64,000 nt of DNA from Paenibacillus sp. 32O-W (GTDB lineage Bacteria; Bacillota; Bacilli; Paenibacillales; NBRC-103111). The stretch is taken from positions 1 to 64,000 of the forward strand of contig NZ_VEGP01000024.1 of the NCBI RefSeq assembly GCF_007679495.1. Reading direction: 5' to 3'. Positions 38,220 through 55,767 of the stretch are shown one piece after another (position 1 is the first letter of the stretch; each line of letters begins with the position of its first letter). The notes under the pieces are model-generated. The model worked only from the letters and a program-made list of their open reading frames with translations, was not told the DNA's origin and searched no databases. Position numbers and translations under genes: made by a program.

Positions 38220-39231
38220 TCAGTTATCCAACCCTCGAGCCTGCACCGCTTCATTGACTTCTTCGATCGCTTTCTGAAGTCCTTTATTGTCGTACCCTCT
38301 AACCGTCTCCTTCCACATGGCCACCGGATCTTCCTTGGCCAGCATAATCCGAATTATATCCTCCGCCACGTTAATCGCGCTCAGCTTCGCTTTAGCCGGC
38401 GTATGCAGTAACTCCACTTTGAAATTGGTCGGAACCGGCTCATAATTTTCAACACGATGCTTCAATTCCTCACGGGACATCCTGGCTAACTCCGCCCCAT
38501 AGGCAATGTCCACCGCTTCGCTTTCGGTAAACTCCATCCATTGGTACCAGGCCGCAAGACTCCCAAACATATTAAATGAAGGATAGAGTGAACCAATGCT
38601 TACGAATTCTCCCTCTTCATTCTTGTCCCGAGTGATGGTATAGGTATCGCCTTGCTTCGTATAATCTTTTCCCTCCATGCCGTAAAACCGGTCCGTCATA
38701 AATTCGTCCGACAGCAAATAGTCATAAATGTGAAGAATCCGCTCCATCTTCTTGTCGTCTACCTGGGAGCTGAAATAGCTCTCCGACCAGAAGGTGATAG
38801 CTTGATAGCGATAGCGCTTCCCATCGGGGCTTACCCAGGATTCAGGAATAATGGCGATGACATCTTCGAATTTGACATCTTTGTTATATTTATCCCATGA
38901 ATTATTAAGATTTTTCAATGCATTCGGCGTGGCTTGAATGGAGATGGCGCCGACCTTGCCTTGCCCGAACTTATCAATGCCGTCGTTCGTCTGCATAATG
39001 GCAAAGTCCGGGTCGATGGCTCCTTCTGTGAAGAGCTCGCGCATTTGCTGAACGACGTCATACATCCTCTCGGAAGCATAGTAAGGGATATACTTGCCGT
39101 CCTCCTTGACCCAGGAGCTATTGCTCAGATTGGCAAAGGTCCCTGTAGCGATCGGAAGCAGCATCGCGTTGGAGCGGAACGTCAGACCGACCGTATCGTC
39201 TTTCTGGTTGCCGTCCGGGTCCGGAAAGATA
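38220..39231 (-). pseudogene. solute-binding lipoprotein (SBP family 1), C-terminal part of a split gene
   Basis: About 337 codons of an LplA-type carbohydrate-binding protein. Upstream of the first Met at 39164 the frame continues to read FPDPDGNQKDDTVGLTFRSN, a calcium-binding-like DPDGN segment normally found in the middle of such proteins. There is no start, signal peptide or ribosome binding site. The frame is cut at about 39232, where group II intron sequence begins. The matching N-terminal part with signal peptide lies at 54345-54832 on the same strand. Together they give nearly a full-length protein lacking roughly 50-60 residues. Confidence 0.8.
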
Positions 39232-39232
39232 T

Positions 39233-39404
39233 AAGACTATGGCAATACGATGGCTTGGACGATTAGCAAGAAACCTTCCTAAACTCTTTGCACATTGGCA
39301 GTTAGGAATACTGCCTACGGCTGGATAATGGGAGCCGGATGGGCTGAGAGGTTCACGTCCGGTTCCGAGAGGGCCTGAGGGTGCGATTCCTTCGGGCTAC
39401 CCAC
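39233..39404 (+). mobile_element. group II intron 3' remnant (RT tail, domains V-VI)
   Basis: The first 90 bases encode a reverse-transcriptase tail (LARNLPKLFAHWQLGILPTAG, then stop). A canonical 34-nt domain V follows at 39332-39365, GAGCCGG...CCGGTTC, then a domain VI hairpin ending near CTACCCAC. Everything 5' of this is missing. Its 3' end abuts another intron's reverse-transcriptase reading frame. Confidence 0.65.
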
Positions 39405-39824
39405 CTTGTGAGTATGTTTCAATACAAAGAAGATGCAGAACGATTCTACTATGCGTTACTGAAGCGCTTAGATAAATTCAATCTCACCGTAGCCGAAGAG
39501 AAGACCGAGATTATTCGTTTTGGTCGTTTCGCAGAGATTGCAAGGAGGAAAGCTAGACTGGGAAAGCCAGAAACGTTTAATTTCGAATCAAGCGCAAGAC
39601 GAACAGGAAGAAATTCAGGCAGAAGGTGAAGGCTTTTGACGAATGGATGAAGCAGGAGAGGCATAAGAAGGCCTTAACCCTTCCAAAGGTTCGAGCGAAA
39701 CTCAGTGGCCACTATAGATACTACGGGATAATGGATAACTTTATAAGCAAAAAGGCATTTGCTTATCTTGCACAGAAGTCGATTTTTAAATGCCTGAACC
39801 GCAGAAATCAGAGGAGCGTATGCG
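39405..39824 (+). pseudogene. group II intron reverse transcriptase/maturase fragment
   Basis: The frame resumes at what would be the YADD(FV) active-site region: LVSMFQYKEDAERFYYALL, then KFNLTVAEEKTEIIRFGRFA. About 40 bases are deleted after KPETFNF. The next frame continues FRIKRKTNRKKFRQKVKAFDEW, GHYRYYGIMDN and KCLNRRNQRS, the typical LtrA C-terminal part. Both ends adjoin other intron sequence, so it has been interrupted twice. Inactive. Confidence 0.7.
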
Positions 39825-40783
39825 TTAAGGAGCAGCCGATAAGGCTGCAATCAAACCGGTGCTAGTCCGGTCAAGGGTACATAGCTATACCGCTGCTTGG
39901 AAAGGTAACAAACCAAGTACTGCGCGGCGAAAAAGGTCTTGCCACCTCAGAGAAAGTGGGAGCAACTAGGGGTCGAGCAAAAATAGAAACCTGAACATAA
40001 ATGAATTACTGCAACCTTGAAATACGGCGTTCCACAAAGGAGTTCGGAACCATATCGGAAGGCAAATCCTGTTTAACGTGAAGAAAAGCTAGCAGTTTTC
40101 AGGAAGAAATGAACAAAAGTACTGCAAACCTTTCCCGAGCTAAGGGTACAAGCACCTATCGAATGATTGCAGAGATAACGTCGGGAAGGTCCTACTTCCA
40201 ATAAGGATTAGTCAACAACCTGCAAAGACCTATCTTATAAGGGAAAGAGATGGGAGGATCTAGGACTGACGCATGACCCCGTAGTAGTGATGAAGTTGGG
40301 GTAAATCCCAAAGAAATGGTATCAAACCATTCCAGACAAACTGGGCAAAGGGGCTGTGGGTACTTGGTGGCTTCAAAGTGCACAGTGTCGATACCACTAG
40401 CAAGTGTTGAGAAGCTAGTGGATAAGCAAACTATATGTCATAGGTGCGCATGTTGGCTGAAGCTAAAACCTCATGGCATATAGAAAGGCTTAGCCGTGAC
40501 AAATGGGTGTAGAGGCAAGACCAGAACCGGACTCGGGAAATCCGACCGTACGGGATCGCAGGGAGGCCTCAGAAAACGTGATAGGTAGACAAACACTGAA
40601 ATACTTCGATGGTAAGAAGGAAAAAAATGCCGACATTAGGTATCCTACAATCTCACTGTCAACTTGTAGGGACTGTATTGGAAACCTATTGGCGCAGCTG
40701 AAATTCTACCCCGAGTTGCGCACGTACGGATCTATGAGGGGTAAGGGGCACAATCCTCGAAGGAAAGGCCCCGCCTACTCGAC
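39825..40783 (+). mobile_element. group II intron ribozyme-like sequence without ORF
   Basis: About 950 bases with many short stems and no long frame. The 3' end shows the second half of a domain V (GCGCACGTACGGATC, 40718-40732), a domain VI hairpin, and CCTACTCGAC ending at 40783, a common intron 3' terminus. The 5' half of domain V and nearly the whole ORF are absent. The boundary at about 39825 falls directly in the preceding LtrA frame. Confidence 0.5.
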
Positions 40784-40885
40784 CTGAATTTCTTCTCGCA
40801 TGATCAGTTCGAGTTTTTCTTTCACAAAATCTGTGACAAGATTTTCAATTAGATTTGTGAGCATGTTTTCGTGTATAGTTACCAT
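40784..40885 (-). pseudogene. IS256-type transposase N-terminal fragment
   Basis: From ATG 40885 the minus strand reads MVTIHENMLTNLIENLVTDF then VKEKLELIMREEIQ, the start of an IS256/Mutator-family transposase. It is cut at 40784, where the intron 3' end begins on the other strand, so the intron probably inserted into this gene. Confidence 0.55.
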
Positions 40886-41560
40886 GAGTAGGGTTCCTTT
40901 ATTGGTGACTTTTGCAATCCCGAGAATACCCTACTTTTTTGTCACCTGTGAAGGGTCCAAATCCTGGTACACAAACAATTTTACACCGTCATTAATTATG
41001 ACTATAAGCCAAGTTAGAAGGAAGAAAGAACTGCGATAAGTATCTTTTGACTAAAGTCTGTTAATTTTCGCCTTGAATGATAGATACATATCTAATCTCG
41101 ATCTATTGTTTTTCGAGTTAGATTTTTTGGGTGTTTGACTTACGTTTCAGTCCTATTCGTTGTGTAGAAAGGCTACCGATCGTGATCGGCAGCCTCGCAT
41201 AACAATATCAAACGCCAGTTCGGATGCACCTTTACGCATAACCTGTGGATAAATGGGGCCAATATTAAGCATTTTAACAAGCTAACTCTCGATGGTGTAT
41301 TTTCAATGACCACCGAAAATCCTAAGTGTAACAAGTAACGTCATAAATCAGAAGGCTCTTTTAGTAAACAGTAAACGGAAGAATATCTGTTCATCAAAAA
41401 GGTGGAGTAGTGAGGCCTTTCATGAGGTATCTACCCAGCAATGAACGAGAGCACCACGTAGCCGGACAATATTAATACTTACATGTAGAGTAGACATTTT
41501 AAGTCGGCAATTCGGAACATAAGCACGAACGTTCCGGACCGCCATTATGTTAGTTTCATA
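40886..41560. other. non-coding spacer, IS leftovers
   Basis: It holds the presumed upstream region of the IS256-type fragment, a strong dyad GGCTACCGATC-GT-GATCGGCAGCC at 41168-41191 (terminator-like on the minus strand) and no gene I can support. Confidence 0.4.
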
Positions 41561-42352
41561 TTAACTCCCCGAACTGGCGTACCTTTTTAATGCTTGCCGC
41601 CATACCAAAGCTCCGATCAACAAGGAAAGCAGTGCGACAACTGGGGAAATAAGCCCGGCCCAGCTTAAACCGAGCTCCGTCTTGCCGAGCAGAACCAACG
41701 AAGGATAATAGTTCATAAAAGCGATCGGTATCAATGTAACAACAACGCGAAACCAAGCACCAAATATGTCGATCGGATATTGTTGAACAAGCAGATTGAA
41801 GCGGTTCATCACAAAAGTGAGCGACATCGACCTCCCGGTCCAGAACGCTGTACAGGCGATGATCCAACGAATAGCCATCTCCAAGATCGTTCCGGAAAGG
41901 CAGGCCAACACGAAAAACAGCCACATGCCCAATCCCCAATGCAATCCGAGATGGGCATACGCAATCGCGAATGAAGCAACGCCGACGATGAGGTCCCCGA
42001 AACCGATATACTGGATTTCCCGCCCGATGAACTGAACGAACGGACTGACTGGCCGGATCAGAAATTGATCAAACGTCCCACGAATAATGTAATCGTCCAT
42101 CTGATTGAAGTGCCAGAAGAGTAAGCTATAGATACTGTGGCCCAGCACGAACATGCTGTACAAGAACACCATCTCCCAGACAGACCATCCGTTCAGGGAA
42201 GTAAAGCGGTTTACCAAAATGCCGATCAGTCCCAGGTTCACGGCATTTAATACGATCACGCTGATGATACCGATAATGAAATCGGCGCGGTACTGGATCC
42301 GGCTTTGCATCGATATTCGAATCAGCTTGAAGTAAATCCGAAGTGATTCCAT
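41561..42352 (-). CDS. ABC-2 type exporter permease subunit 2
   Basis: 263 residues with about six membrane helices, of the ABC-2 family in which two distinct small permeases accompany one ATPase. The sequence around FNQMDDYIIRGTFDQFLIRPVSPF is the conserved cytoplasmic segment of this group. ATG 42352 with GGGAGG upstream is preferred to an earlier in-frame start that overlaps the previous gene. It is the last gene of the exporter unit. Substrate unknown. Confidence 0.8.
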   Translation of the reverse strand: MESLRIYFKLIRISMQSRIQYRADFIIGIISVIVLNAVNLGLIGILVNRFTSLNGWSVWEMVFLYSMFVLGHSIYSLLFWHFNQMDDYIIRGTFDQFLIRPVSPFVQFIGREIQYIGFGDLIVGVASFAIAYAHLGLHWGLGMWLFFVLACLSGTILEMAIRWIIACTAFWTGRSMSLTFVMNRFNLLVQQYPIDIFGAWFRVVVTLIPIAFMNYYPSLVLLGKTELGLSWAGLISPVVALLSLLIGALVWRQALKRYASSGS

Positions 42353-42356
42353 TGTA

Positions 42357-43154
42357 TCAACCTCCCTGCACGGCAAGCTTGGAATGTACGGCAGACCATG
42401 TCAACCGACAGATTACTAGCAGGCCGGCAACCCAAACCGCTTGAAACAACAGCGACTCCCAAACTCCGGCACCAGTCTGTTTTCCGATGTAGATCGATAA
42501 TGGAATAGAGAAGATACATTTAAAAGGGAGCGCATTCGCCAACCCGTTCAGCCATCCGGGAAAAAGCCAGAGGGGCACCATTTGCCCGGCAAAGAAACGA
42601 AGAAGAGAGTTGTATGTCCAAGTGATGCTCCGAATGTCGATCGTCAGTACGGACACCATCCCCAGCAAAAAATTCAAAGAAAACAGCACCAAGTATCCTA
42701 ACAGCAGGCTGACAACAAATAATAGAGCATTCAGTGCGGATACCGGTGGCTTGAGATCGAGAAACAGTACGCCGACCAAAGCTGCTGGCAGCACGATCGT
42801 ACCGAAACGGAACGAAATCTCACCGAAATTCCTCGCCAGCATATGCAAATGGAAATCGAGCGGCTTGATCAAGTCCGTATCGATGGAACCAGACTTGATT
42901 TGCGACGATATGTACATTTGCGGTCCTTGTCCGGGATTGAAGATCGCTTCGAGCGCCATGCCAAGCACACCATACGTAGCCATCTGATTAAGGCTAACGC
43001 CAAACGCACCCGGATGTTCCGAATAAAGGATATTCCATATCCAGTACACGCTGTACATCATCAGAAAAGCGGAGACAAGCTGAAGCCAGTATTCAAACCG
43101 GTAAATAGCCGTATTATGGAAAGATTGCCGTGTGAATGACCAGAAGATACTCAT
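42357..43154 (-). CDS. ABC-2 type exporter permease subunit 1
   Basis: 265 residues, about six membrane helices, same permease group. The conserved segment SSQIKSGSIDTDLIKPLDFHLH parallels IIRGTFDQFLIRPVSPF in the partner subunit. It begins three bases after the ATPase stop and ends just before the second permease, which implies fixed stoichiometry of a heterodimeric channel. Confidence 0.8.
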   Translation of the reverse strand: MSIFWSFTRQSFHNTAIYRFEYWLQLVSAFLMMYSVYWIWNILYSEHPGAFGVSLNQMATYGVLGMALEAIFNPGQGPQMYISSQIKSGSIDTDLIKPLDFHLHMLARNFGEISFRFGTIVLPAALVGVLFLDLKPPVSALNALLFVVSLLLGYLVLFSLNFLLGMVSVLTIDIRSITWTYNSLLRFFAGQMVPLWLFPGWLNGLANALPFKCIFSIPLSIYIGKQTGAGVWESLLFQAVWVAGLLVICRLTWSAVHSKLAVQGG

Positions 43155-43157
43155 CTT

Positions 43158-44150
43158 TTATACCGCCCTTGCATCGATGGTCTTCCCCTCGTATATCGAA
43201 CGAACCATTTCTTCGATTTCTGGCTCTTCCACTGTCAAGTCCTTGATCGGGTAACAGGCACCGATTAGAGTGATGAGTTCGGACGGAGAAGCCTCGTTGC
43301 GATTAAACTTGAACCATTTTTTCGTGCCGTCGGACTTTACTAATTCCGCACCTTTCACGTTAAAATCCGCGACCGGCTGCTCAAATTGAATGACAAGCGT
43401 CCGGTACTCCCCATATTTCATGCGTATTTCCTCGATATCCCCATCGTAAATGACCTCTCCGCGATCAATGATCATCATGCGCGAGCACAGCTTTTCAATG
43501 TCGCCCATGTCGTGAGTCGTTAGGAGAACGGTCACCTTTTGCTCCCGATTGATCTCTTTAATGAAGGCCCGAAGTCTCTCTTTGGCGACCACGTCGACTC
43601 CGATCGTCGGTTCGTCGAGGAATAGAATCTTCGGACTGTGAAGCAGCGCCGCAGCTAAATCCGCCCGCATCCGTTGACCAAGGCTTAGTTGTCGGACGGG
43701 GGTGTTCTGGAATTGGTGAAGCTCCAGCAATTCGCAAAATAAATCGATATTTTTCTTATACAGCGAGTCTGGGACTTTATAGATATCTTTCAGCAATCTA
43801 AGGCTGTCGATGACCGGAATGTCCCACCAGAGCTGCGTCTTTTGCCCGAACACTACGCCGATTTGCTTAGCATGTTCTTTCCGGTTTTTGGATGGAACGA
43901 TGCCGTTCACTTCGACATGTCCACTCGTCGGAACCAAAATGCCGGTAAGCATCTTGATGGACGTCGATTTCCCTGCGCCGTTCGGGCCAATATACCCGAC
44001 CAGTTCGCCTTCTTGAATCGTAAAGGAGACCTCATTTACGGCGCGTTTTATGTTAAAATTAGGGTTGAAGAGAGTACGTATACTAGAGAACATTCCGTCC
44101 TTTCGTATAGTTTGTTTATATTCTTTCACTAAAGAATCTACGAAAATCAT
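43158..44150 (-). CDS. ABC-2 type exporter ATPase
   Basis: 330 residues. Walker A GPNGAGKST, Q-loop FGQKTQLWW, signature LSLGQRMR, Walker B ILFLDEPTIGVD and H-loop TTHD are intact, with a C-terminal extension (about 230-330) usual in drug/lipid exporters of the DrrA/NodI group. Base composition resembles the host chromosome, unlike the AT-rich genes just upstream. There is no obvious terminator in the 89 bases separating it from the glycosyltransferase, so co-transcription is possible. It could export the product of that cluster. Confidence 0.82.
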   Translation of the reverse strand: MIFVDSLVKEYKQTIRKDGMFSSIRTLFNPNFNIKRAVNEVSFTIQEGELVGYIGPNGAGKSTSIKMLTGILVPTSGHVEVNGIVPSKNRKEHAKQIGVVFGQKTQLWWDIPVIDSLRLLKDIYKVPDSLYKKNIDLFCELLELHQFQNTPVRQLSLGQRMRADLAAALLHSPKILFLDEPTIGVDVVAKERLRAFIKEINREQKVTVLLTTHDMGDIEKLCSRMMIIDRGEVIYDGDIEEIRMKYGEYRTLVIQFEQPVADFNVKGAELVKSDGTKKWFKFNRNEASPSELITLIGACYPIKDLTVEEPEIEEMVRSIYEGKTIDARAV

Positions 44151-44239
44151 AAAAGATCATTCCCCTTTGATATATCAATTCGAGCTCGTGCATGCTCTGT
44201 CAACTAAAACTTTTTTCTAGGGTCAGCTTGATAATATAC

Positions 44240-45676
44240 TCACGAAAACTTTCTCCTCACTAATATTTTTTGAAATAATGCCCACCAGTTATCCATAAAT
44301 AATTCCTCATGAAAAGCGTTTATACTTTGGTAGGCATTTCCACTCATGAATCGTAATTTCTCGGGGTTCAAAAAGAGTTCCTTCATTTTTTGAGCTAAGC
44401 TGTTAATATCGTCTTTTGGAACTAAATATCCATTAAATCCATGATTAATCATTACACTTGGACCATATTTTAAATCGTAACTAATTACAGGGCATCCATG
44501 GGATAAACTTTCCAAAGTAGCAAGACTAAATCCTTCAGACTTACTTGTTACAACGGAAAAAGCAGCTTCTTCAAAAATGTCTCTTGGGTTTTCTGAATAA
44601 CCTTTCAAAAAAACGTGATCCTGTAGCTGCAACTTTTCAATAAGTTCACTGAGTACATTTTCTTGATCACCTTTCCCGTATAGTTCTAGGCGCAAATTTG
44701 GAATTATATCTAGAACTGTTTTAAAAGCTTTTATAATATGGTCGAGTTGTTTTACTTTATGATACCTTGCTATAACAATAGCCTTCTTTAGGTCCCTTTT
44801 GGTAAAGTCTGGGGGGTTATCTGGTTTTTTATAACAATGTGGAATAACAAATAATCTCTCATTTTCCCCAAGAATTAATTCAACATCTTTCTTTTGAGCT
44901 TCTGTATGGAGCACAATTGCATCCGATTTCTTAAAATTATTTAACAACAATCTATAAGTATTTTTAATTGGGGAATCCGTTTCATAAGGTTCTTCTATAT
45001 GAATACTGTGACTAACAAAAATTCTTAAGCTATTAGTTTTTTCAAAAGATAATATATGTTGGTCCATGTCTCTTCCATCAACTATAAAAAAACAAGGGTC
45101 TTCAGTAGTTGACAATACATTTAACCAATGCATTATTAATTCTTGATCAGTATTACAAACCATAATGAGTCGATTACCTTCATCAAATAAAGATATTTTT
45201 TCATTATAAGCTCCGTAAGCAGTTCTTTGAAACTGTTTCACCATGAAACACCGTTTGTTACTGGTATAGTAAAACTCATATGTAATTCCGTTATCGTCGT
45301 CATCAGCTATCATTTTCCGTAATCTCCCTAAACTATCGAATACCTCCTCTACTGTTTTGAGTTTACAGTAATTAATCAATGAATCTTGATCTAAATAACT
45401 ATCATCTGGTAACAATCCCATTTCTGGTAACTTCTCGTAATACTCATACATATTTAAAATAGTTATATCGCTCGTTATTTTCCCTTTTTTTAGTAAATGT
45501 GATCTAATCAAATTGTAACTTGGATTAAAATTAAAAGTTAAGATTGTTGGTTTTAAGTTCGCCTCTTTACTAAAAATTCTTGCTCTTTGCAACATTGCAT
45601 TGGTTAATCCACCAAATTCCATATTGATATACGATACTATAAAAAAGAATCTACCATTTCTAAAATATTCAACCAT
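44240..45676 (-). CDS. glycosyltransferase, GT4-like (TagE-related)
   Basis: 478 residues. The C-terminal half is a GT-B donor domain: KAIVIARYHKVKQLDHIIKA, LYGKGDQE, VFLKGYSENP and the nucleotide-sugar E-x7-E region SEGFSLATLESLSHGCPVI. The long N-terminal region (GGLTNAMLQRARIF...) resembles poly(glycerol-phosphate) glucosyltransferase-type proteins. Acceptor unknown. It is the third gene of an AT-rich minus-strand unit after the UGM-like and NIS-type genes (130-base gap). Codon use and composition set it apart from the flanking chromosome. Confidence 0.75.
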   Translation of the reverse strand: MVEYFRNGRFFFIVSYINMEFGGLTNAMLQRARIFSKEANLKPTILTFNFNPSYNLIRSHLLKKGKITSDITILNMYEYYEKLPEMGLLPDDSYLDQDSLINYCKLKTVEEVFDSLGRLRKMIADDDDNGITYEFYYTSNKRCFMVKQFQRTAYGAYNEKISLFDEGNRLIMVCNTDQELIMHWLNVLSTTEDPCFFIVDGRDMDQHILSFEKTNSLRIFVSHSIHIEEPYETDSPIKNTYRLLLNNFKKSDAIVLHTEAQKKDVELILGENERLFVIPHCYKKPDNPPDFTKRDLKKAIVIARYHKVKQLDHIIKAFKTVLDIIPNLRLELYGKGDQENVLSELIEKLQLQDHVFLKGYSENPRDIFEEAAFSVVTSKSEGFSLATLESLSHGCPVISYDLKYGPSVMINHGFNGYLVPKDDINSLAQKMKELFLNPEKLRFMSGNAYQSINAFHEELFMDNWWALFQKILVRRKFS

Positions 45677-45805
45677 CTACTCCTCACCTCACTATACGCT
45701 TGTCAGATGTGTAATGAGGGGGATGTCAAAGATACCAAAGATAACATCCCCTCAAATAAAGCGATTACAATATTCCTTATAATGAGTGAACTTTTATATA
45801 GGATA

Positions 45806-47617
45806 CTAATTTCCAAGTACTTTTGACATTGTATTATAATTTAGATAAAGTTCGTTTTTTCGCACTGAACGGTATGGAACCGGTGTGTTTTTTAAGTTAA
45901 GCCCTTTCGATAATAGATTACGTCTCACTGATAAGTCCAACATGTATAACTTATATGTCTCAAAAGGAAATTCGCTCTTTTTCCACCATTTTGAATAAAT
46001 TGAATTAACAATCTCAATCAGTTTTTCAGATTTAACTGAATATTGTTTTGAAATAAACTTGATTAGATAGTTAAGTTGCGAATCAATAATCCCATGAGTA
46101 TAACCAGTTGTGAGGAAATAGCTTCGTAGATAAGGATCATTGTCTGGTAACACTGACATACTTCTTGTTTGTGCAGCATTTGTACTGTTGATGTGATTTG
46201 ATGATATACCATATCTTCCTAATAATTCCTTACTAATCTTTGTAGACTCTATATCTCTTAAACAAATACCAGTAAATGCCCGTTCTTTATTACTCCAGAC
46301 CAGAAGTGTGTTTTGTGCGTGTGACTCATGACCAAGTCCAAATTTTAATAACTCTAAATAACCTTCTACAAGACACTGTGATATATTATAAAACAATTCA
46401 ACTATTGATAAATGAGACATGCCTAGAAGTTCCTCGAATACGGTTAGTTCTCCTGATGGTGGTGATGAAACCATTGCAAAAGATGGAAGTAGTATCTCAT
46501 CATTTTTTAGAGCAGGATAAACCGAATTGATACCCCCCCGAAGTAGACACGTCAATATTGAGCATTCTTGGTGATATATCATCGCAAACTCTGGAATGAA
46601 ATGTACTCCTTGAGGCCATATTCCCTTTTCATAAATTTGCATAAATACCTGGGATGTAAGGATTCCATTCAGTGCCTCCTCACGGTTTAGAACACGAGAA
46701 TGGCTCGTTATTTGTCCAGTGTAAGTACATTTAATGTGGAAGTCAGAATAAGTCCCGGAATCTTCAGAGTATAATAATGTCCGAATAGATGTTGTAGGGG
46801 CACAACGAATTGTGCCAATTTTTATTAGATCTTCCTTTAGTTTTGGCATTTTTTCGAATAGATGAGGTAACGAAAAAGGATGTATGGGTATCATAGCTTT
46901 TCCCTGACATACCTTATCAAAAAGCATAATAGATTGATCAGTTAAATTCATAGTTTGTTTTTGAATACTAATCTTCCCGCTCTTTGAAGCAAAAAGGGGA
47001 ACCTCAATTTCTTTATTCTCCATTAAATATGGGTGATGGCAATGATCACCTATAAAGGCATGAGAAATAGGATTAATTTGAGGGCGTTCAATATTATATT
47101 TCTGCTCAAGTTCAACATATAGTTCTTTTTTTAAATGCATTAGTTCTTTTATATTGTGTCTTTTTGTTTGTCGCAAAGTACGCAGATTCTGCCCCATTAT
47201 GTAAGCCATGTTCATATTTGCTTCAAGTAACCCTTTAGCTTCAGGATGAATATTAAGGAGATGACATATCCAATCGATTGATACATCAATTTTTTTATTT
47301 GTAGCTACTTCATAAATCGAATGAATTTCATTAATGTCACCACAATAGTCTATAGTTGCTATTATATGAAACTGAGTATCATGGTTGTTAAGTTGGACTA
47401 GAAAGACAAGATAATCATCGGGGCAATTAAGATCCTCTGGATAAACATTTACACATGAAATACATCCTAGTGCTGCCTCTGATGCAATTAATGATTCATT
47501 AATGAATGCACGAAGGACATTAAAGACAGTAAATTGTTCTGCTGATCTAAGAGCGAATTCTTTATTGGAATCGCTAAATCTCTCGACCCAATTATTTTTA
47601 TTTAAAAGAGTCTCCAT
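45806..47617 (-). CDS. IucA/IucC-family NIS synthetase
   Basis: 603 residues. This family uses ATP to condense a carboxylate (citrate, 2-oxoglutarate or succinyl derivative) with an amine or alcohol, usually to make NRPS-independent siderophores. Visible motifs: HHPYLMENK (about 194-202), IPIHPFSLP (244-251, for the HPWQ motif), APTTSIRTLL (273-282), the TYTGQITSHSR strand, LGHESHAQNTLLV (429-440, the eAHgQN motif) and LRDIES (453-458, for RDxxg). The start ATG 47617 has GGAGGAAAAG upstream and overlaps the UGM-like gene by 16 bases, so they are coupled. The N-terminal motif is divergent. No partner NIS gene, TonB-type or iron ABC receptor is seen nearby. Confidence 0.8.
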   Translation of the reverse strand: METLLNKNNWVERFSDSNKEFALRSAEQFTVFNVLRAFINESLIASEAALGCISCVNVYPEDLNCPDDYLVFLVQLNNHDTQFHIIATIDYCGDINEIHSIYEVATNKKIDVSIDWICHLLNIHPEAKGLLEANMNMAYIMGQNLRTLRQTKRHNIKELMHLKKELYVELEQKYNIERPQINPISHAFIGDHCHHPYLMENKEIEVPLFASKSGKISIQKQTMNLTDQSIMLFDKVCQGKAMIPIHPFSLPHLFEKMPKLKEDLIKIGTIRCAPTTSIRTLLYSEDSGTYSDFHIKCTYTGQITSHSRVLNREEALNGILTSQVFMQIYEKGIWPQGVHFIPEFAMIYHQECSILTCLLRGGINSVYPALKNDEILLPSFAMVSSPPSGELTVFEELLGMSHLSIVELFYNISQCLVEGYLELLKFGLGHESHAQNTLLVWSNKERAFTGICLRDIESTKISKELLGRYGISSNHINSTNAAQTRSMSVLPDNDPYLRSYFLTTGYTHGIIDSQLNYLIKFISKQYSVKSEKLIEIVNSIYSKWWKKSEFPFETYKLYMLDLSVRRNLLSKGLNLKNTPVPYRSVRKNELYLNYNTMSKVLGN

Positions 47618-48960
47618 GTCTTTTCCTCCGTACCGAAAATAACTTTTTCAATAACTTCCATTCCTTGCATAAAGGTATGATCTTGGTTTGATATTTCATA
47701 ACACCATGCTCCAAATCGTCCCCGCGAATAGATATCGTGCTTCATTAACTCGGGTTGAATAATCCTTAGAGAATTATTTCGTTCAACTGTTGGCACAGGG
47801 TATCCAAATGGAGCCATAAAATACCATGTTGAAACAACTTCGCCATTTTCGGGGTCCATTAACTTTGTATTTATAGCCCCTTGTATTACCTCATTTATCA
47901 AATTATCCTTTACTTGTTTAGAATCTGATTCGGACACTTCACACAATAAAGAGTAATGGCCTTCAGATGGTACATTATATTTCGAATAATTAGATAATAT
48001 AGTAACCCTATAGCATGGGGTATCATCATTAGGGAAATATATCCAACTTTTATCTACCAAATGTTGTGGAATTTCACCTTTGATTCCGATGCCAACTACG
48101 TGGACAATATTATTTATGAGCTTATTCGCATGCTCATATAAATGTTCCAATTTTGCCATTTTAATTAATTTTATTAACGGTATCGAAGTAATTAGTGTAT
48201 CATATTCTTCTATTGATCCATCATTAAAAAACAGTACTTTTTCCTTTATATTAAGTTCGGTAAGCTCTTTATTAAAATGAATTTGACTCTGTGGTAATTT
48301 TGCGGCTAGACCTTTCCATATAGTCCCTGTTCCTCCTTTAATGGGATAGGAAAAATAATTATTAGGTCCCCAACTGTCATTCGTTTTATCATATAAAATG
48401 TCTCTTACAACTTCCTTTAGGTCTATTTGTGACACCCTTTCTTTTACCCAATAGTAACCCATTTCTTTTGGTTCATGAGCCCATACCTTATAATTATATG
48501 GATACATGAAATGTTTAAAGATACCAACTCCATAATTTTGCTTTATCCATTCTTCAAAATTTGCTGGAGGCTGACTACTTTCGTTCTTTGTCTTTGAATC
48601 AATAAGACCCTCTAAACATTCCCACGCACAATCTGCAGGTAGGTCTTTTAAATTCGCATGATAGGGATAAGAAATGAATCTATCATGTTGCCAAGCAAAA
48701 GCATTTCTTTTTATATTTTTGTTTAAGTCTGAATTGAAGTGTTCCTCTAACATTTCGTTGTATTGTTCATAATGTGAGAACTGTACATGTCCACCGATAT
48801 CCCATACAAATCCCATATTATCCTGGAATGAAGTAGCCAACCCCCCTGCATAACTATTTTTCTCAAATGCAACCCAATTCGAATATCCGATCTTTTGCAA
48901 CTTATTAGCTGCTCCGATTCCACAAGGTCCAAGTCCAAGAATAACTATCCTCTTCAACAC
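47602..48960 (-). CDS. UDP-galactopyranose-mutase-like flavoenzyme (eukaryotic-type)
   Basis: 452 residues. FAD-binding motif VILGLGPCGIGAANKLQ, then FEKNSYAGGLATSF and WDIGGHVQFSHYEQY. The last segment (His58) and later NYKVWAHEP, SWGPNNYFSYPIKGGTGTIW match UGMs of fungal/protozoal type (Aspergillus-like GGHVIFSHY, WGPN..F..P..GGTG.IW) rather than E. coli Glf. UGM converts UDP-galactopyranose to UDP-galactofuranose. A related ring-contraction substrate or another FAD oxidoreductase role is possible. Start GTG 48960 follows AAAGGGG. It leads the AT-rich unit and is divergent from a GT4 gene. Confidence 0.72.
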   Translation of the reverse strand: MLKRIVILGLGPCGIGAANKLQKIGYSNWVAFEKNSYAGGLATSFQDNMGFVWDIGGHVQFSHYEQYNEMLEEHFNSDLNKNIKRNAFAWQHDRFISYPYHANLKDLPADCAWECLEGLIDSKTKNESSQPPANFEEWIKQNYGVGIFKHFMYPYNYKVWAHEPKEMGYYWVKERVSQIDLKEVVRDILYDKTNDSWGPNNYFSYPIKGGTGTIWKGLAAKLPQSQIHFNKELTELNIKEKVLFFNDGSIEEYDTLITSIPLIKLIKMAKLEHLYEHANKLINNIVHVVGIGIKGEIPQHLVDKSWIYFPNDDTPCYRVTILSNYSKYNVPSEGHYSLLCEVSESDSKQVKDNLINEVIQGAINTKLMDPENGEVVSTWYFMAPFGYPVPTVERNNSLRIIQPELMKHDIYSRGRFGAWCYEISNQDHTFMQGMEVIEKVIFGTEEKTWRLF

Positions 48961-49091
48961 TGTAACCCCTTTCAATTTTTGATGGCATTGAGATAAACTA
49001 TTTACAAAAACCTAATGAATATTTTACAATAAATTTACATGGAATGAAATAGGGTATTTTTAAAAAAAAGGTAAAAAAGGCAGGTATTATT

Positions 49092-50288
49092 ATGAACTCA
49101 AAAAATAAAGTTCTAATGATTACTCCCGACTATCCACCAGATGTTTTTGGAGGTATTGGTATTCATGTAAATGAATTGGCAATTGCTTTGTCCGAAATAA
49201 ATTGTGATTTAACAGTAGTTGTAGCCCCTCTATATAAAGAGATGAGTTTTAGTAGAATAGAGATAAATGATAACTTATCTGTAGTGACCCTTAAACAACA
49301 AATAACAGACGAGGTACCGCTAAATTATTGGCCTCTTAGATTGTCAAAATATAACGAACAATTATTGAACGAATTAGATAAATATATCGAACATAGCAAT
49401 CACAGCTCATTTGATATAATACATATTCATGATTATTACCATGCTCATGTTGCGGTTGCCCTGAAGGAGAAGTTTCAACTCCCTTTAATCTCTACTATTC
49501 ACTCTATTGCTCCTCCAGCAAGTCATTTTATTGATGGTCTTAGAAGATTTCTTGCTTCAAATTCAGATACTATTATTTCAGTAAGTGCCTGGTTACGAGA
49601 AAAAATAAAGACCAGGTACAATTTGGATGACAGTGTCAAAGTAATCCATAACGGTATTACATGTAAAAATCCTGATGCTGCCCTACTAAGGGCAAAAAAA
49701 CCCACACAACCTAAAATAATTACCTTTGTTGGCAGGCTTGCACCTAGAAAAGGATGTGATATTTTATTAAGAGCCTTCAAAAAGGTTCTGATAAACGATC
49801 CAACGGTGATACTTCAAATGATTGGTGATGGTCCACTACGTAGTAATCTTGAATCATTAGCTGATGACCTAGGAATCCTTGATAATGTTCAGTTCTTGGG
49901 ATATATAAAAAATGAAGAAATTCGAAGTTACTTAGCAAATTCGTCATTACACGTTGTACCCAGCACACAGGAACCCTTTGGCATTGTTGCCCTGGAAGCA
50001 ATGGCTGAAGGAATCCCAGTCATCACTACAACCGTGGGCGGATTCCCTGAATTTATAACTCATGGTTGGAATGGATATATGGTAGAACCTGATGAAGTAA
50101 ATTCACTATCTGATGCAATTCAGTTGTTGATAGAGAATACGAATCTCAGATCTAATCTAGCATACAATGCATTAACATCTTTAAATAATTTCTCATGGAA
50201 AAAGGTTGCTGCATCAACCAAATCGATATATCTTGAGCATATTAGTAAGGAGAAAATTATTAAAAAATATCATATAAATATGTTCTAA
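49092..50288 (+). CDS. glycosyltransferase family 4
   Basis: 398 residues, GT-B fold. N-terminal PDYPPDVFGGIGIHVNELAIAL (acceptor-domain glycine loop), FVGRLAPRKGCDILLRAF, MIGDGPLRSNLE, and STQEPFGIVALEAMAEGIPVI with the E-x7-E donor motif, then VGGFPEFI. It is a retaining transferase using an NDP-sugar; if the divergent UGM-like enzyme makes UDP-Galf, that is a natural donor. Divergent promoters must lie in the 131 AT-rich bases to the UGM-like gene. It resembles glycogen-synthase-like GT4 proteins only in general fold. Confidence 0.8.
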   Translation: MNSKNKVLMITPDYPPDVFGGIGIHVNELAIALSEINCDLTVVVAPLYKEMSFSRIEINDNLSVVTLKQQITDEVPLNYWPLRLSKYNEQLLNELDKYIEHSNHSSFDIIHIHDYYHAHVAVALKEKFQLPLISTIHSIAPPASHFIDGLRRFLASNSDTIISVSAWLREKIKTRYNLDDSVKVIHNGITCKNPDAALLRAKKPTQPKIITFVGRLAPRKGCDILLRAFKKVLINDPTVILQMIGDGPLRSNLESLADDLGILDNVQFLGYIKNEEIRSYLANSSLHVVPSTQEPFGIVALEAMAEGIPVITTTVGGFPEFITHGWNGYMVEPDEVNSLSDAIQLLIENTNLRSNLAYNALTSLNNFSWKKVAASTKSIYLEHISKEKIIKKYHINMF

Positions 50289-50367
50289 GCCCTTTAAACA
50301 GGCGCAACAGGGATCTTATATATTTGATATGGAAATATGAAACAGATTTGACTACTCCAGAGCAAAT

Positions 50368-50510
50368 TCAACCATCTATCCGGTGAGTGATAGCCACCTC
50401 TCTGGTGTTTTTAAGCTTCCCTTTCCATCCCCTCATGGGGAGACGCAGGGAACAAGCCCCTTGAACTGGTCGTGAGGCAACCCCCAATGGTTTACTGGGG
50501 GATTGCATGA
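50368..50510 (-). mobile_element. IS200/IS605-type right end, omegaRNA-like remnant
   Basis: On the minus strand hairpins CCCCCA..TGGGGG and TCCCC-ATGA-GGGGA are followed by AAGGGAAGCTTAAA, ACACCAGAGAGGTGG and GGATAGATGGTTGAAT. The order and the terminal GGTTGAAT resemble the 3' end of tnpB loci, where the omegaRNA scaffold lies. No tnpB frame is left upstream. The rest of 50289-50700 holds nothing else I recognise. Confidence 0.4.
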
Positions 50511-50699
50511 GTGTGCTGTGGATATAAAGTAATGTAATGCAACAAAAGCATGTTTTCACCCAAATAGAATCTATTTTTATGAAAATCATTGCAATGACAA
50601 ATCAGATAAAATTAAAAACACTAATGCTTCGTATGCCTTAGAAAAACTACGACAGCAGGATTAGCTTGTCGAAGTATTACAGGGAAAGAACTTTACAAA

Positions 50700-51699
50700 G
50701 GAGTTACCTCATACTTTCTAGAATCGGCTAGGCGCTGCCCCTCGAATTTAATTTCGAACCGAAATGACTCATTACCCGCACTGTGAAGCGAAGCTGCAAC
50801 ATTCGCATATGGCCTGGCATAAAAAGATGTCTACACTAAATGGCGTTATCGATGTATGGAGCTTGGCTTACGCTTGTAAGAATCCTTCACGCCTGCACAT
50901 GGGCGTCTCGTATAAATCGGCCGAAGCGGAGATGCTCAGCATGAAGCACTCGTCCTACGGCTACGATGTGCTGGCTCTGGCGGCGAGCTGCGATTCAAGC
51001 ATCATATGACGGTCAAAGAACTGGCGAACGTCAAGCGCAAAATTTTTATGAGCGTTATCAAGTCCTTATGACCGCGAGTCTCGATGACCATGTCCGCAAG
51101 ATGCTGGCCGAAAAGACAGAGCAAAACGGCGGTATCATTTTATCCATGGATGGCTTTCAGCCGGAGAAGGTCAACGACCCTGTATGTCCTTCGCGAAGTA
51201 TTCAGCGGGACGGTGCTTGCTGCGAAGAACATGAAAAGTGGCTCAGCGGCGGAGTTGCAAACGCTCATCCTGTCGGTGATCGAGCTCGGCTTTCCCATTG
51301 TCGGGATCGTTAGCGACGGCCAACATTCGATCCGTTTGGCGTTCGAACGCCTACGTCCCGACGTTCCGTATCAGTATTGCCAGTATCATTAATTGAAGGA
51401 TATTGTAAAACTAGTAGGGCTTGGAGAAATTATTCGACAGACGAAGGTGAATCACCGCCGGATCACAGGATTACGGAATTGGAATTCCTACATCCAGCGC
51501 AACGGTGAATTGATCGTGCTGATCCGGGATGCGCTTCCATAGGAACATATTGAACACCATCTAGGCTCCGTCGCTATGCCGCTTACAAGAACTGTGAGGT
51601 CAATTGGCGCTCCCGTTTGAACGAACATGTGGAACGTAAACGTTTTAATCGAGATACCGAGGCTTATCTGGCTGTACTGAGCACGAATGGGATAAAATA
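50700..51699 (+). pseudogene. DDE transposase, several frameshifts and deletions
   Basis: Fragments in successive frames belong to one transposase: PHCEAKLQHSHMAWHKK and DVWSLAYACKNPSRLHMG, then LMTASLDDHVRKMLAEKT, IILSMDGFQPEK (first Asp), PIVGIVSDGQHSIRLAFERL (second Asp), YQYCQYH and finally NWRSRLNEHVERKRFNRD ending at 51699. At least three frame changes and a missing C-terminal catalytic part make it inactive. The cysteine-containing start suggests a zinc-finger transposase; I cannot name the IS family with certainty. Confidence 0.65.
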
Positions 51700-51733
51700 G
51701 TCTGTTAGCTAACTATGCTGTCGTAGAAAAAAA

Positions 51734-52240
51734 TCGAGTAAGTGGGGGCGACTAATCCCCATCTTCTCACACCACCGTACATACATGGTCCGCATACGGC
51801 GGCCCCAAAGATTAACAGGGTTGCAAGTAACGAGAAAGCAGACTTTTCAGCCCTCTCGCTTCCCAATAGGAAGTCGGGAGGGCGTTGTTTGTGTTCCGGG
51901 ACACTTCCCATGCACCGCGACGGGAGTTGGCCATGTCGAAGCAAGCCCACTCTGGCACGCCAAGCGCTCGAAGCTCACGAATGCGCGTGCGGACTCTCTC
52001 GCGTACTATGGGGCCTCTGCTGGCTCTTGCGGATTCAGTAGAGTCTCTCGGCTCTAGTTACGAAGGGACTTCGCGTATTCCGCAGGCCTCCCCAGATTAG
52101 AACGTCATCTTTCTGCCCGCGACCACTGGAGTATACAAGACTAGTCCTTGGCGGCTCTGGATTTTTTTATGTACCGGCAACTCATCACTAATCCTGCCTC
52201 AAAGCTAGTTCGTGTACCTTGGCCCGATGACGCCCATGCT
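51734..52240 (-). mobile_element. group II intron remnant on the minus strand
   Basis: The minus strand ends with GCCGTATGCGGACC...TACGGTGG and a hairpin closing in CTTACTCGAT at 51734, the look of domains V and VI. Upstream the frame VRERVRTRIRELRALGVPEW, FDMANSRRGAWEVSR, LPTSYWEAREGLKSLLSRY is the C-terminal tail of a group II maturase. Before that lie ribozyme-like stems. The bulk of the ORF is gone. It adjoins the broken transposase. Confidence 0.55.
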
Positions 52241-52250
52241 GGGCGTACAG

Positions 52251-52288
52251 AAAAAACGCGGAAGGAGTAATACACTCCTGTCCGCGTT
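52251..52288 (-). terminator. terminator after the LeuB-like gene
   Basis: On the minus strand AACGCGGA..AGGAGT and ACTCCT..TCCGCGTT pair in a long stem and run into six T residues. It lies about 85 bases past the dehydrogenase stop. Confidence 0.8.
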
Positions 52289-52371
52289 CTAATGTGCAAA
52301 GCAGTATTGAAAAACATATAGTGGCCAATAAAGGATCACTTCTTGTGAATGGTTCCTTATTTATAAACCAA

Positions 52372-53466
52372 TCAATCACTTATCATAATTTTGTGACAAA
52401 CTTTATCACCAAATTCAGCAGTACCAAGTACTTTTGATAAATCGTCTCCCTCAATAAATAGATCTTGGGTTCTGAATCCCTCTTCTAATACAGAAAAAAT
52501 TGATTCTTCAATATGTTTAGACTCATTTTCAAGATTAAATGAGTATCTTAACATCAATGCCACCGATAAAATTGCACTTATTGGATTAGCAATATTTTTC
52601 CCAGCAATGCTTGGTGCCGATCCATGAATAGGTTCGTACAATCCAAAAGTACTATCACCTAAACTAGCCGATGGCAGTAAACCAATTGAACCTAATAATA
52701 CAGAAGCTTCGTCTGATAAAATATCACCAAACATGTTGCTAGTAAGAATAACATCAAATTGACTTGGATTTAATATTAGTTGCATTGATGCGTTATCAAC
52801 ATGCATATAGTCTAATTTAACATCTCCATAATCCTTGGAAATCCTTTCTACAACCTCTCGCCATAATAAACTACTTTTCAAAACGTTTGATTTCGCAACT
52901 AATGTTAATTTTCTCCTCCTCTTCCTTGCTATCTCAAATGCTTTAACTGCTATTCTGCTTATCTCTGATTCTGAGTATGTTTCAGTATCCGAATAAATCT
53001 TTTCACCATTAATAATTTCTTCTTTTTTTTGGCCAAAGTAAATACCGGATGTTAATTCTCTTACAATAACTATATTGACATTTTCTACAATTTTTTCTTT
53101 TATAGGAGAAAGATGAATTAGCGGTGCGATAGTTTTTGTCTCTCTTAAATTGTTATATAAATTAAAATGTTTTCTTAGAGGTAAAATGGCTTTTTGCTCA
53201 ACTCCAGACCATTTGGGATGATTAATATCTTCAGGCGGGCCACCAAATGGGCCCTTTAATAAAGCATCACATTTTTTTGCTTCAATAATTGTGTGTTCTG
53301 GCAAATGTTTCCCATATTTATCAAATGCTTCACCGCTTGCTTCTAAATAAGTTCTTTCAAATTGGTGATTGAATTTTTTTTCAATACACGTTAAAACTTT
53401 CTCTGCCTCTGCAATTATCTCAGGACCAATATAATCACCTTTAAGAATTCCAATTTTCGCTCTCAT
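52372..53466 (-). CDS. 3-isopropylmalate-dehydrogenase-like enzyme
   Basis: 364 residues, beta-decarboxylating dehydrogenase family (LeuB/isocitrate/tartrate/homoisocitrate). LPLRKHFNLYNNLRE carries the substrate arginines, RELTSGIYFG the third Arg and Tyr, VAKSNVL the catalytic Lys, NMFGDILSDEAS the metal Asp residues and HGSAPSIAGKNIANP the NAD site. It is closest to LeuB, but it stands alone: no leuA, leuC or leuD is present. It is AT-rich like the UGM/NIS cluster and unlike the chromosome. Start ATG 53466 (GGAAGG upstream) is preferred to GTG 53475. It may feed a 2-oxo acid into a special pathway or be a displaced leu gene. Confidence 0.8.
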   Translation of the reverse strand: MRAKIGILKGDYIGPEIIAEAEKVLTCIEKKFNHQFERTYLEASGEAFDKYGKHLPEHTIIEAKKCDALLKGPFGGPPEDINHPKWSGVEQKAILPLRKHFNLYNNLRETKTIAPLIHLSPIKEKIVENVNIVIVRELTSGIYFGQKKEEIINGEKIYSDTETYSESEISRIAVKAFEIARKRRRKLTLVAKSNVLKSSLLWREVVERISKDYGDVKLDYMHVDNASMQLILNPSQFDVILTSNMFGDILSDEASVLLGSIGLLPSASLGDSTFGLYEPIHGSAPSIAGKNIANPISAILSVALMLRYSFNLENESKHIEESIFSVLEEGFRTQDLFIEGDDLSKVLGTAEFGDKVCHKIMISD

Positions 53467-53599
53467 TACCTGCACACCTTCCTATTATGTTTTTCCCAAA
53501 TGATTAGTTAAATTTAGTATATATTAAATAATTAGAAAAAGAAACAAAAGCAAATTGTAAACGCGCAAAGATAATTTAAATCGAGCCAACCTTTGCTTC

Positions 53600-54340
53600 G
53601 GTGGATTTGTATAAATCGTCAGGTAACGTTTATTGCGGAGCCTGAGCAATCGCTGCAGTTCCTGTTCCGTTACATACGGATCTTTTGTAAGCTCGTTGCA
53701 AATGTAAGCCGAAGATCATGCGGACGTAGCGGCGAATGTCCCGTGTTGGATCACGTCGCCCCTCACATGCCAAATCCCGATTTGCTCCAGAATCCTGTTA
53801 ATGGTCCGGAGATATAATCGGCCATCCACTTTCCACCGAGTCGTTCCCTTCGCACTTAAAAAGAACTCGGACGATTACTGAGATTCGTCGATTAAGCCTT
53901 CTTCTCCAAATAATCAGCAAGAGCCATGTCGCATCCCGAGATAAGTACTCAGTTCCTTCCGTTCTTCCTTTCCCACGAATTAGAATAACCGTTGTTCGCT
54001 CCGCAGATCGGAGCTTAGCCGGCGTGTTAGTTACAACTTGGTTCAGATCCAGCTGTACCAGCTCCTCCCGGCGCAAATTAGTAGATAACAACACATCCAT
54101 GATCGCCCGGTCACGGTTAGGTCTTGCATATTTTCTGAGTAAATATTTTCCTGCGGATCTCCATACATCGTGCTTACGGTAGTACCGCTCGAGCTGGTTG
54201 TACAGATTTTTCAATGATAAGATCTGTTCTTCGGTCAATGTCCGGGCTCTGGATCGGGAAGCAGAATATCGCGGACCCCTTTGGTCGGATTGTCCGGCAG
54301 CAAATCGGCGCAGCAGTGCGGCGCCATTTCATAAAGGGAT
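53600..54340 (-). pseudogene. tyrosine recombinase (integrase), frameshifted
   Basis: The frame TEEQILSLKNLYNQLERYYR, NRDRAIMDVLLSTNLRREEL is the start of an integrase catalytic domain, with the first catalytic Arg in TNLRREEL and later IRGKGRTEG and YLSRDAT. After that the frame is lost. The neighbouring frames continue ALADYLEKK, FLSAKGTTRWKVDGRLYLRT and INRILEQIG. The box with the remaining catalytic His/Arg/Tyr cannot be read. It sits exactly at the island edge next to the cut solute-binding gene. Confidence 0.65.
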
Positions 54341-54891: not shown

Positions 54892-55767
54892 TCATTCCTT
54901 CACGGCACCCAAGGTAACCCCTGCCGCAAAGTACTTTTGCAGGAATGGATACACCAGCATGATCGGTGCCATCGTTATGATGACGCTGGCCATCTTCAGG
55001 CCGTCCGGGTAGGTTTCGCTAAGCTGGGCCACCATAGATGCGCCCATATCGTCCCTGGCCATTTTGGTAACGTCCATCAGCATATTTCGCAGGAACAATT
55101 GCATGGGATACATCTTCGTATCCGTCATGAATAGCATCGCGTAATACCATTCGTTCCAGCGGGCGACGGCATAGAAGAGTGTAATCGCTGCAATCGTCGG
55201 CTTCGATATGGGAATAACGATACGAAACAGAATAAAGATATCGTTGGCGCCGTCCATCTTCGCCGATTCTTCCAGCTCCGAAGGAATGGAGCGGAACTGA
55301 TTGATCATGACGATCAGAAAAAAGGTACTTACCGCCACCGGCAGGATCATGGCGCCATAACTGTTAATGAGCTTCAAGTTCTTGATCGTCAAGTAAAATG
55401 GAATCAAGCCGCCGCTGAACAGCATGGCGAAAATAACCCCGGACATCATTACATTTCGGCCCGGCATGCCTTTCTTCGACAAGGCGTAAGCGCCGCAAGT
55501 CGTTACCAGCATGTTGATGGTTACCCCTACCAAAGTGACGATCAGCGAATTTGTCAATGCTCTGCCGATATAGCTTCCTTTCAACAATATCTCGTAGGAG
55601 CTCAGATTAAAGCTGGTCGGGATCAGATAGAATTGCTGCTTGACCACCGCGGCCGGGTCTGCAAAAGAAGTAATCAGCACGTTGTAGAACGGCAAGATCG
55701 TAATCAAAGCCAACAGCATTAACCATACGTGAATAGCGTAATCCGTCCATGTATTCTTCCGATTCAT
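54892..55767 (-). CDS. carbohydrate ABC permease (LplC/YtcP type)
   Basis: 291 residues, six membrane helices. PFYNVLITSFADPAAV, GLIPFYLTIKNLKLINS and the coupling loop ELEESAKMDGANDIFILFRIVIP identify the MalG-like LplC branch. C-terminal residues KYFAAGVTLGAVKE are the standard ending of this branch. Its ATG shares a base with the stop of the other permease (TGATG), so translation is coupled. The binding protein it serves is disrupted. Confidence 0.88.
   Translation of the reverse strand: MNRKNTWTDYAIHVWLMLLALITILPFYNVLITSFADPAAVVKQQFYLIPTSFNLSSYEILLKGSYIGRALTNSLIVTLVGVTINMLVTTCGAYALSKKGMPGRNVMMSGVIFAMLFSGGLIPFYLTIKNLKLINSYGAMILPVAVSTFFLIVMINQFRSIPSELEESAKMDGANDIFILFRIVIPISKPTIAAITLFYAVARWNEWYYAMLFMTDTKMYPMQLFLRNMLMDVTKMARDDMGASMVAQLSETYPDGLKMASVIITMAPIMLVYPFLQKYFAAGVTLGAVKE

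Follow-up and report, generated by a model that had tools for sequence, protein, structure and literature searches.

An acquired island in Paenibacillus sp. 32O-W couples a eukaryotic-type UDP-galactopyranose mutase-like gene to a divergent NIS synthetase gene and may modify an envelope glycoconjugate

Enzymes of the SdgB/TarM/GtfA type, members of glycosyltransferase family 4 (GT4), glycosylate repeat-rich surface proteins or wall teichoic acid, the SdgB/TarM-type activity being the transfer of N-acetylglucosamine onto teichoic acid or an SD-repeat protein. NIS (IucA/IucC-type) synthetases, which include IucA, IucC, AcsD, AsbB and DesD, are mostly siderophore makers. Among the eukaryotic-type UDP-galactopyranose mutases (UGMs), such as those of T. 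cruzi (4dsg) and A. fumigatus (AfUGM; 3ukf), the contacts of AfUGM to flavin adenine dinucleotide (FAD), diphosphate and galactose have been tabulated (PMC3624792, Table 3); its Gln107 hydrogen-bonds the uracil and is absent from classical bacterial UGMs (PMC3624792). We analysed a 64,000-nucleotide stretch (hereafter the window) of the 5.76 Mb draft genome of Paenibacillus sp. 32O-W, positions 1 to 64,000 of contig NZ_VEGP01000024.1 (labelled C152), in which relatives of all three enzyme types are encoded side by side; its gene content and homologues appear to be those of Paenibacillaceae. We tentatively favour an acquired accessory operon, UGM-NIS-GT4a with a divergent GT4b, that modifies a cell-envelope glycoconjugate, the NIS protein attaching a carboxylate. 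Each protein falls in a known family, and the combination of UGM and NIS is undescribed within the limits of the literature searched: a search thin on subscription journals returned no paper joining galactofuranose with a NIS synthetase and none on such a gene set, in keeping with the first-pass annotation of this DNA, which knew of no described pathway with these genes.

The genes under discussion are as follows.

41561-42376, minus strand: ABC-2 permease 2 (PF06182), codon usage host-like
42357-43154, minus strand: ABC-2 permease 1 (PF06182), codon usage host-like
43158-44150, minus strand: exporter ATP-binding cassette (ABC) ATPase (PF00005), codon usage host-like
44240-45676, minus strand: GT4a, glycosyltransferase of the SdgA/SdgB-TarM-GtfA group by NCBIfam and solved relatives, AT-rich
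45806-47617, minus strand: NIS, divergent IucA/IucC-type synthetase of 603 amino acids by PF04183, hhalign and motif residues, AT-rich
47602-48975, minus strand: UGM, eukaryotic-type UDP-galactopyranose-mutase-like flavoenzyme by its match to 4dsg, fold and residues, AT-rich
49092-50288, plus strand: GT4b, divergently oriented GT4 near the MshA/BshA group by Pfam and NCBIfam, AT-rich
52372-53475, minus strand: extra leuB, 3-isopropylmalate dehydrogenase family by TIGR00169 and codon usage, AT-rich

The reading frames of UGM and NIS share 16 bases (47602-47617), 129 bases separate NIS from GT4a and 89 separate GT4a from the ATPase gene, all on the same strand. The first-pass annotation had read this arrangement, with GT4b divergent, from the sequence alone, and its gene positions, overlap and 89-base gap were all borne out; it had missed the extra leuB at 52372-53475 and the borders of the island in which these genes lie. 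A clear Shine-Dalgarno sequence, GGAGG, precedes the NIS start and, together with the overlap, fits translational coupling. Judging from the overlap and the shared base composition, UGM and NIS were likely acquired together and are likely translated together. For UGM itself, a start at GTG 48960 or TTG 48957, behind AAAGGGG, is more plausible than the TTG at 48975 with which the frame was first drawn. A consensus scan listed no terminator in the gaps from UGM to the ABC genes, including the 89-base gap in which none had been obvious by eye. Promoter matches in the window were no commoner than in shuffled sequence, and we gave them no weight.

The locus is built of two compositional layers. GC content at third codon positions (GC3) is 0.25-0.28 for UGM, NIS, GT4a and GT4b versus 0.57-0.63 for the ABC trio, which substantiates the AT-richness first noticed in those four genes. 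Scored against host genes, UGM, NIS, GT4a, GT4b and LeuB favour an AT-rich codon model by +0.33 to +0.52 bits per codon, the model applied to leuB having been trained on the remaining four genes, and the extra leuB belongs to the same AT-rich layer. All five AT-rich open reading frames (ORFs) are intact, and from the UGM/NIS overlap and the common codon usage we conclude that the five genes probably arrived together. The ABC trio lies within the island and is codirectional, yet it has a different history: its codon usage is host-like (-0.44 to -0.53 bits per codon), and the best match to permease 1 (42357-43154) among 25 genomes was a 41% paralogue in its own genome. Because of this host-like codon usage the link between the trio and the pathway is weak, and the initial proposal that a product is made and exported here, which the position and orientation of the trio still favour, is weaker than first claimed. 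The exporter assignment itself held, the two permeases scoring 127.7 and 78.5 bits against Pfam ABC2_membrane_6.

Sequence and fold place the flavoenzyme firmly in the eukaryotic-type UGM family. It matched T. cruzi UGM at E 4e-120, and an AlphaFold2 model built with 30 relatives in the alignment had a pLDDT of 89.9 and a TM score of 0.95 to 4dsg, versus 0.76 or less for the next fold family, protoporphyrinogen oxidase. This difference, with the UGM-specific residues, ruled out a protoporphyrinogen-oxidase or amine-oxidase identity. A classical bacterial UGM was also rejected, the protein having no match to the corresponding Pfam family, PF03275, and no PF03275 protein was found elsewhere in the genome. 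With AfUGM numbering mapped by reading the alignment, window residues H63, R180, N205, Y313, R323, Y392, R420, Y426 and N430 are those of AfUGM H63, R182, N207, Y317, R327, Y419, R447, Y453 and N457. The GG-His (GGH) flavin loop and the Arg, Tyr and Asn residues that bind sugar and diphosphate are identical in this protein and in 84 relatives.

The window protein therefore has the fold, the GGH loop and all checked sugar, diphosphate and FAD contacts in common with eukaryotic-type UGMs and their bacterial relatives, and differs from them where the nucleotide base is contacted. The uracil-contacting Gln107 of AfUGM, which is Gln in 84 of 84 relatives, is His106 here, and Phe106 is Tyr105. Because of His106, the nucleotide sugar may differ from UDP-galactose. 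Gln107 is a specificity feature, so its replacement lowers confidence in the substrate and leaves the fold-family assignment as it was; the suggestion that the product is galactofuranosylated becomes uncertain.

Eukaryotic-type UGMs are not rare among bacteria in general: we confirmed 287 relatives in genome contigs, the best (49% identity) in a Flavobacteriales metagenome-assembled genome (MAG). Within a sample of 399 Bacilli genomes, the window protein was the sole match at E 1e-30, and in a FastTree phylogeny of 84 relatives it formed a long single branch (0.93) without a close neighbour.

The NIS protein appears from profile and motif evidence to be a genuine, although highly diverged, member of its family. 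It scored 46.9 bits against Pfam PF04183 (IucA_IucC; gathering threshold 25), upholding the original assignment, and aligned by hhalign with a profile of nine ordinary NIS proteins at 99.1% probability over residues 241-545. In common with IucA, IucC, AcsD, AsbB and DesD it has the S.R, H.K, T...R, H.QN and RD motifs in order, retaining S277, R279, H294, K296, T304, R308, H433, Q435, N436, R454 and D455. It differs from them in its very low score, in keeping 28 of 61 strongly conserved columns, in having HPFS for HPWQ, in being solitary and in lacking siderophore partner genes. Residues 1-240 lie outside the profile alignment; within them, a DHCHHP at 191-196, noticed by eye, may be a remnant of the N-terminal histidine-proline motif. 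Structure prediction of the two active sites, proposed at the outset, was informative for UGM, whereas the single-sequence model of NIS reached a pLDDT of only 33. No close NIS homologue was found in overlapping samples of 104 family, 395 order, 399 class and 299 phylum genomes or in plasmids or phages, nor when viral and genome contigs were scanned with a single query, a search that detects only close relatives.

Were the operon to make a small carboxylate metabolite with a (galactofuranosyl) sugar attached, perhaps a siderophore, and export it through the ABC-2 trio, this would accord with the usual role of NIS enzymes and with a trio that is codirectional and only 89 bases downstream of GT4a, with no terminator listed between. 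The best scores of GT4b also point that way, falling to BshA and MshA, which glycosylate small molecules, though far below their NCBIfam cutoffs. The NIS gene content of related genomes speaks otherwise. PF04183 proteins occur in 33 of the 104 family genomes, and in the other 32 there are 2-4 matches each, with best scores of 212-263 bits and mostly a few kb apart; the genome studied here has a single match, at 49 bits in the same survey. A solitary, highly diverged NIS protein argues against an ordinary siderophore locus. Among the island ORFs we found no hydroxylase, acetyltransferase, decarboxylase or ferric-siderophore uptake gene, and the other window ORFs sampled with Pfam held no amine-modifying or ferric-siderophore uptake gene. 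The host-like codon usage of the trio and the polymer-glycosylating group to which GT4a belongs count further against a secreted small molecule, which we consider unlikely.

Both glycosyltransferases are GT4 proteins as first annotated (Pfam Glycos_transf_1, 115 and 161 bits). For GT4a, NCBIfam SdgA scored 208 bits, below a cutoff of 800 bits that is set for that exact protein. The solved relatives are 7ec1/7ec7, TarM (4x6l) and Gtf1/GtfA (5e9t), GT4a scoring 162.8 bits against 7ec7 and 123 against TarM. The entries 7ec1/7ec7 carry the deposition name 'glycosyl transferase, group 1'; since the best-matching models are those of NCBIfam Sdg, we take them for the SdgA/SdgB set of S. aureus. GT4a was 31-37% identical over most of its length to its best matches in 161 class genomes, and about 30% identical to staphylococcal plasmid glycosyltransferases. 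By sequence, GT4a belongs to the SdgB/TarM group, its best solved and NCBIfam relatives being SdgA/SdgB, TarM and GtfA at about 30% identity; no teichoic-acid or repeat-adhesin gene was recognised in the island. The relatives of GT4a act on surface polymers and not on small metabolites such as the one first proposed.

The extra leuB matched TIGR00169 at 412 bits (NCBIfam cutoff 353) and shares 49-50% identity with a further leuB that the genome carries on contig C235, near a thiamine-pyrophosphate-enzyme gene of acetolactate-synthase type. The island copy is probably part of the accessory operon set and is possibly tied to the acid used by NIS. An altered substrate loop in this LeuB was considered and dropped; a similar loop is present in ordinary LeuB proteins from other bacteria.

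Conserved co-occurrence of the UGM and NIS genes had been set beforehand as a test of a joint pathway. We searched the flanks of the 80 closest UGM loci, up to 10 kb on each side and short in several cases, by tblastn with the NIS protein and with the NIS profile, and found a NIS gene at none of them (0/80); no LeuB match was found near these loci either. This outcome leans against a joint pathway, although on the NIS side the test has low power because no close relatives of the protein were found. What remains of the joint-pathway proposal is its physical part, namely the overlap, the composition and the shared island. The UGM relative nearest by identity (locus L034) belongs to a polysaccharide cluster that also contains GT2, GT4, pyruvyl-transferase and ABC genes.

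Other neighbourhoods of UGM relatives were varied. Three Streptomyces plasmid loci (including those on NZ_CP130719 and NZ_CP109251) have in common with the window a UGM-like enzyme (32-34% identity, 33% for the two named) that shares a short operon with a GT4-type gene, and differ in having P-loop and kinase-like proteins and an unassigned protein as partners and no NIS. We ruled them out as the same system, since the 528-aa neighbour is not a NIS protein. The operon common to them (L017 11968-17636, L018 2765-8434 and L016 11767-17633) has five genes, encoding the UGM-like enzyme, a P-loop protein, a kinase-like protein, a GT4 and an unassigned protein of 527-530 amino acids, and resembles a conserved system of its own in which most parts have no Pfam name. 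In a Bacillota MAG (UR.bin48; L091 3369-8973), a eukaryotic-type UGM has as neighbours an S9 peptidase of prolyl-oligopeptidase type and a protein with a Fic domain, unusual company for a sugar mutase.

The AT-rich genes and the ABC trio are cargo of a mosaic, horizontally acquired island, the parts of which are listed here.

About 39222-54334, no strand: inserted island of ~15.1 kb splitting a sugar-type solute-binding-protein gene, from flank homology
38220-39221, minus strand: 3' part of the split gene, by its homologue in family member L115
54335-54832, minus strand: 5' part of the split gene, by its homologue in L115
39330-40000, plus strand: group II intron remnants (Rfam RF00029 at 39330-39449, 47 bits, above gathering; RF02003 at 39853-40000, 32 bits, below gathering)
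51733-52230, minus strand: group II intron remnants (Rfam RF00029, 37.5 bits, and RF02001, 31.5 bits, both slightly below gathering)
50647-51726, plus strand: decayed IS256-type element remnant (weak NCBIfam IS256_Zn_var match; imperfect 20-bp terminal inverted repeats, 50647-50666 and 51707-51726)
53798-54238, minus strand: tyrosine recombinase remnant (weak PF00589 and XerC matches, below cutoffs)

Compared with the intact gene of L115, the left flank begins at residue 222 (66% identity) and the right flank ends at residue 174 (53% identity), so that about 47 codons were lost at the junction. Since the flanks match the two parts of a single gene, the arrangement is unlikely to stem from a chimeric assembly. 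Immediately upstream of the 5' half are sugar ABC permease genes (54892-56690), the order expected of a sugar ABC operon; with its binding-protein gene split and those codons lost, this host operon was probably inactivated by the insertion. The intron remnants flank the cargo on both sides in opposite orientation, and maturase-like fragments were seen by eye near 39380-39850. A plasmid or phage origin of the island was considered and not retained: NIS had no match in plasmids or phages, and the island DNA had no useful match in plasmids. Window ORFs outside the island, where sampled with Pfam, concern the transport of peptides and sugars and catabolism of the sugar or inositol type.

Such an island could also have gathered its genes by chance, as pieces of an unrelated glycan locus beside an orphan NIS gene that form no single pathway. 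The intron, IS256 and integrase remnants, the empty result at the 80 UGM loci, the differing composition of the ABC trio and the occurrence of the set in one genome only, among all samples searched, speak for this reading. Five intact AT-rich ORFs, the preserved catalytic residues of both NIS and UGM, and an overlap and single codon usage that speak for joint arrival are harder to reconcile with it, and we judge chance adjacency rather unlikely, though slightly less so than a secreted metabolite or siderophore.

We therefore favour, over both of these, the envelope-glycoconjugate operon, for which the UGM/NIS overlap, the shared codon usage, the UGM fold and residues, the NIS motifs, the relatives of GT4a, the polysaccharide cluster at L034 and the solitary NIS gene all speak. 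Several findings weigh against it and keep the preference tentative. We recognised no gene in the island for a lipid-carrier transferase, a flippase, a polymerase or an anchoring function, which makes the envelope role indirect. Remnants abound in the island, which may be in decay; the NIS structure model is poor, and no NIS gene was found near the 80 closest UGM relatives. A GT2 or GT4 gene was within the flank in only 26 of 79 other UGM loci by a crude BLAST search. Finally, the gene set occurs in no second genome of the samples searched, which leaves its function without support from conservation.

If the envelope-glycoconjugate operon is the correct reading, we infer the following steps. 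The UGM-like flavoenzyme would convert a nucleotide-bound hexopyranose to its furanose form through a flavin N5-sugar adduct, with UDP-galactose the default substrate and another nucleotide or sugar possible given His106. GT4b and GT4a would then transfer sugars onto an acceptor, GT4a belonging with enzymes whose targets are wall teichoic acid or repeat-rich surface proteins. NIS would activate a di- or tricarboxylate as its adenylate and link it to an amine or hydroxyl group on the product or on a precursor, and the ABC-2 trio may export the product, although it is of different history. A more specific version, in which an adenylating synthetase of NIS type couples a polycarboxylate to a surface glycan or glycoside that contains a furanose, alongside a nucleotide-switched mutase (Gln to His) and possibly with the island LeuB-type dehydrogenase shaping the acid, is speculative, and we consider it the least probable of the proposals made here.

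Should NIS indeed work with the mutase and the glycosyltransferases, NIS chemistry would extend past siderophores to the modification of glycans or glycosides. The altered base contact of the UGM would, if true, offer a handle on how such flavoenzymes choose their nucleotide sugar. Both the reach of NIS and the change in the UGM base contact can be tested with recombinant proteins.

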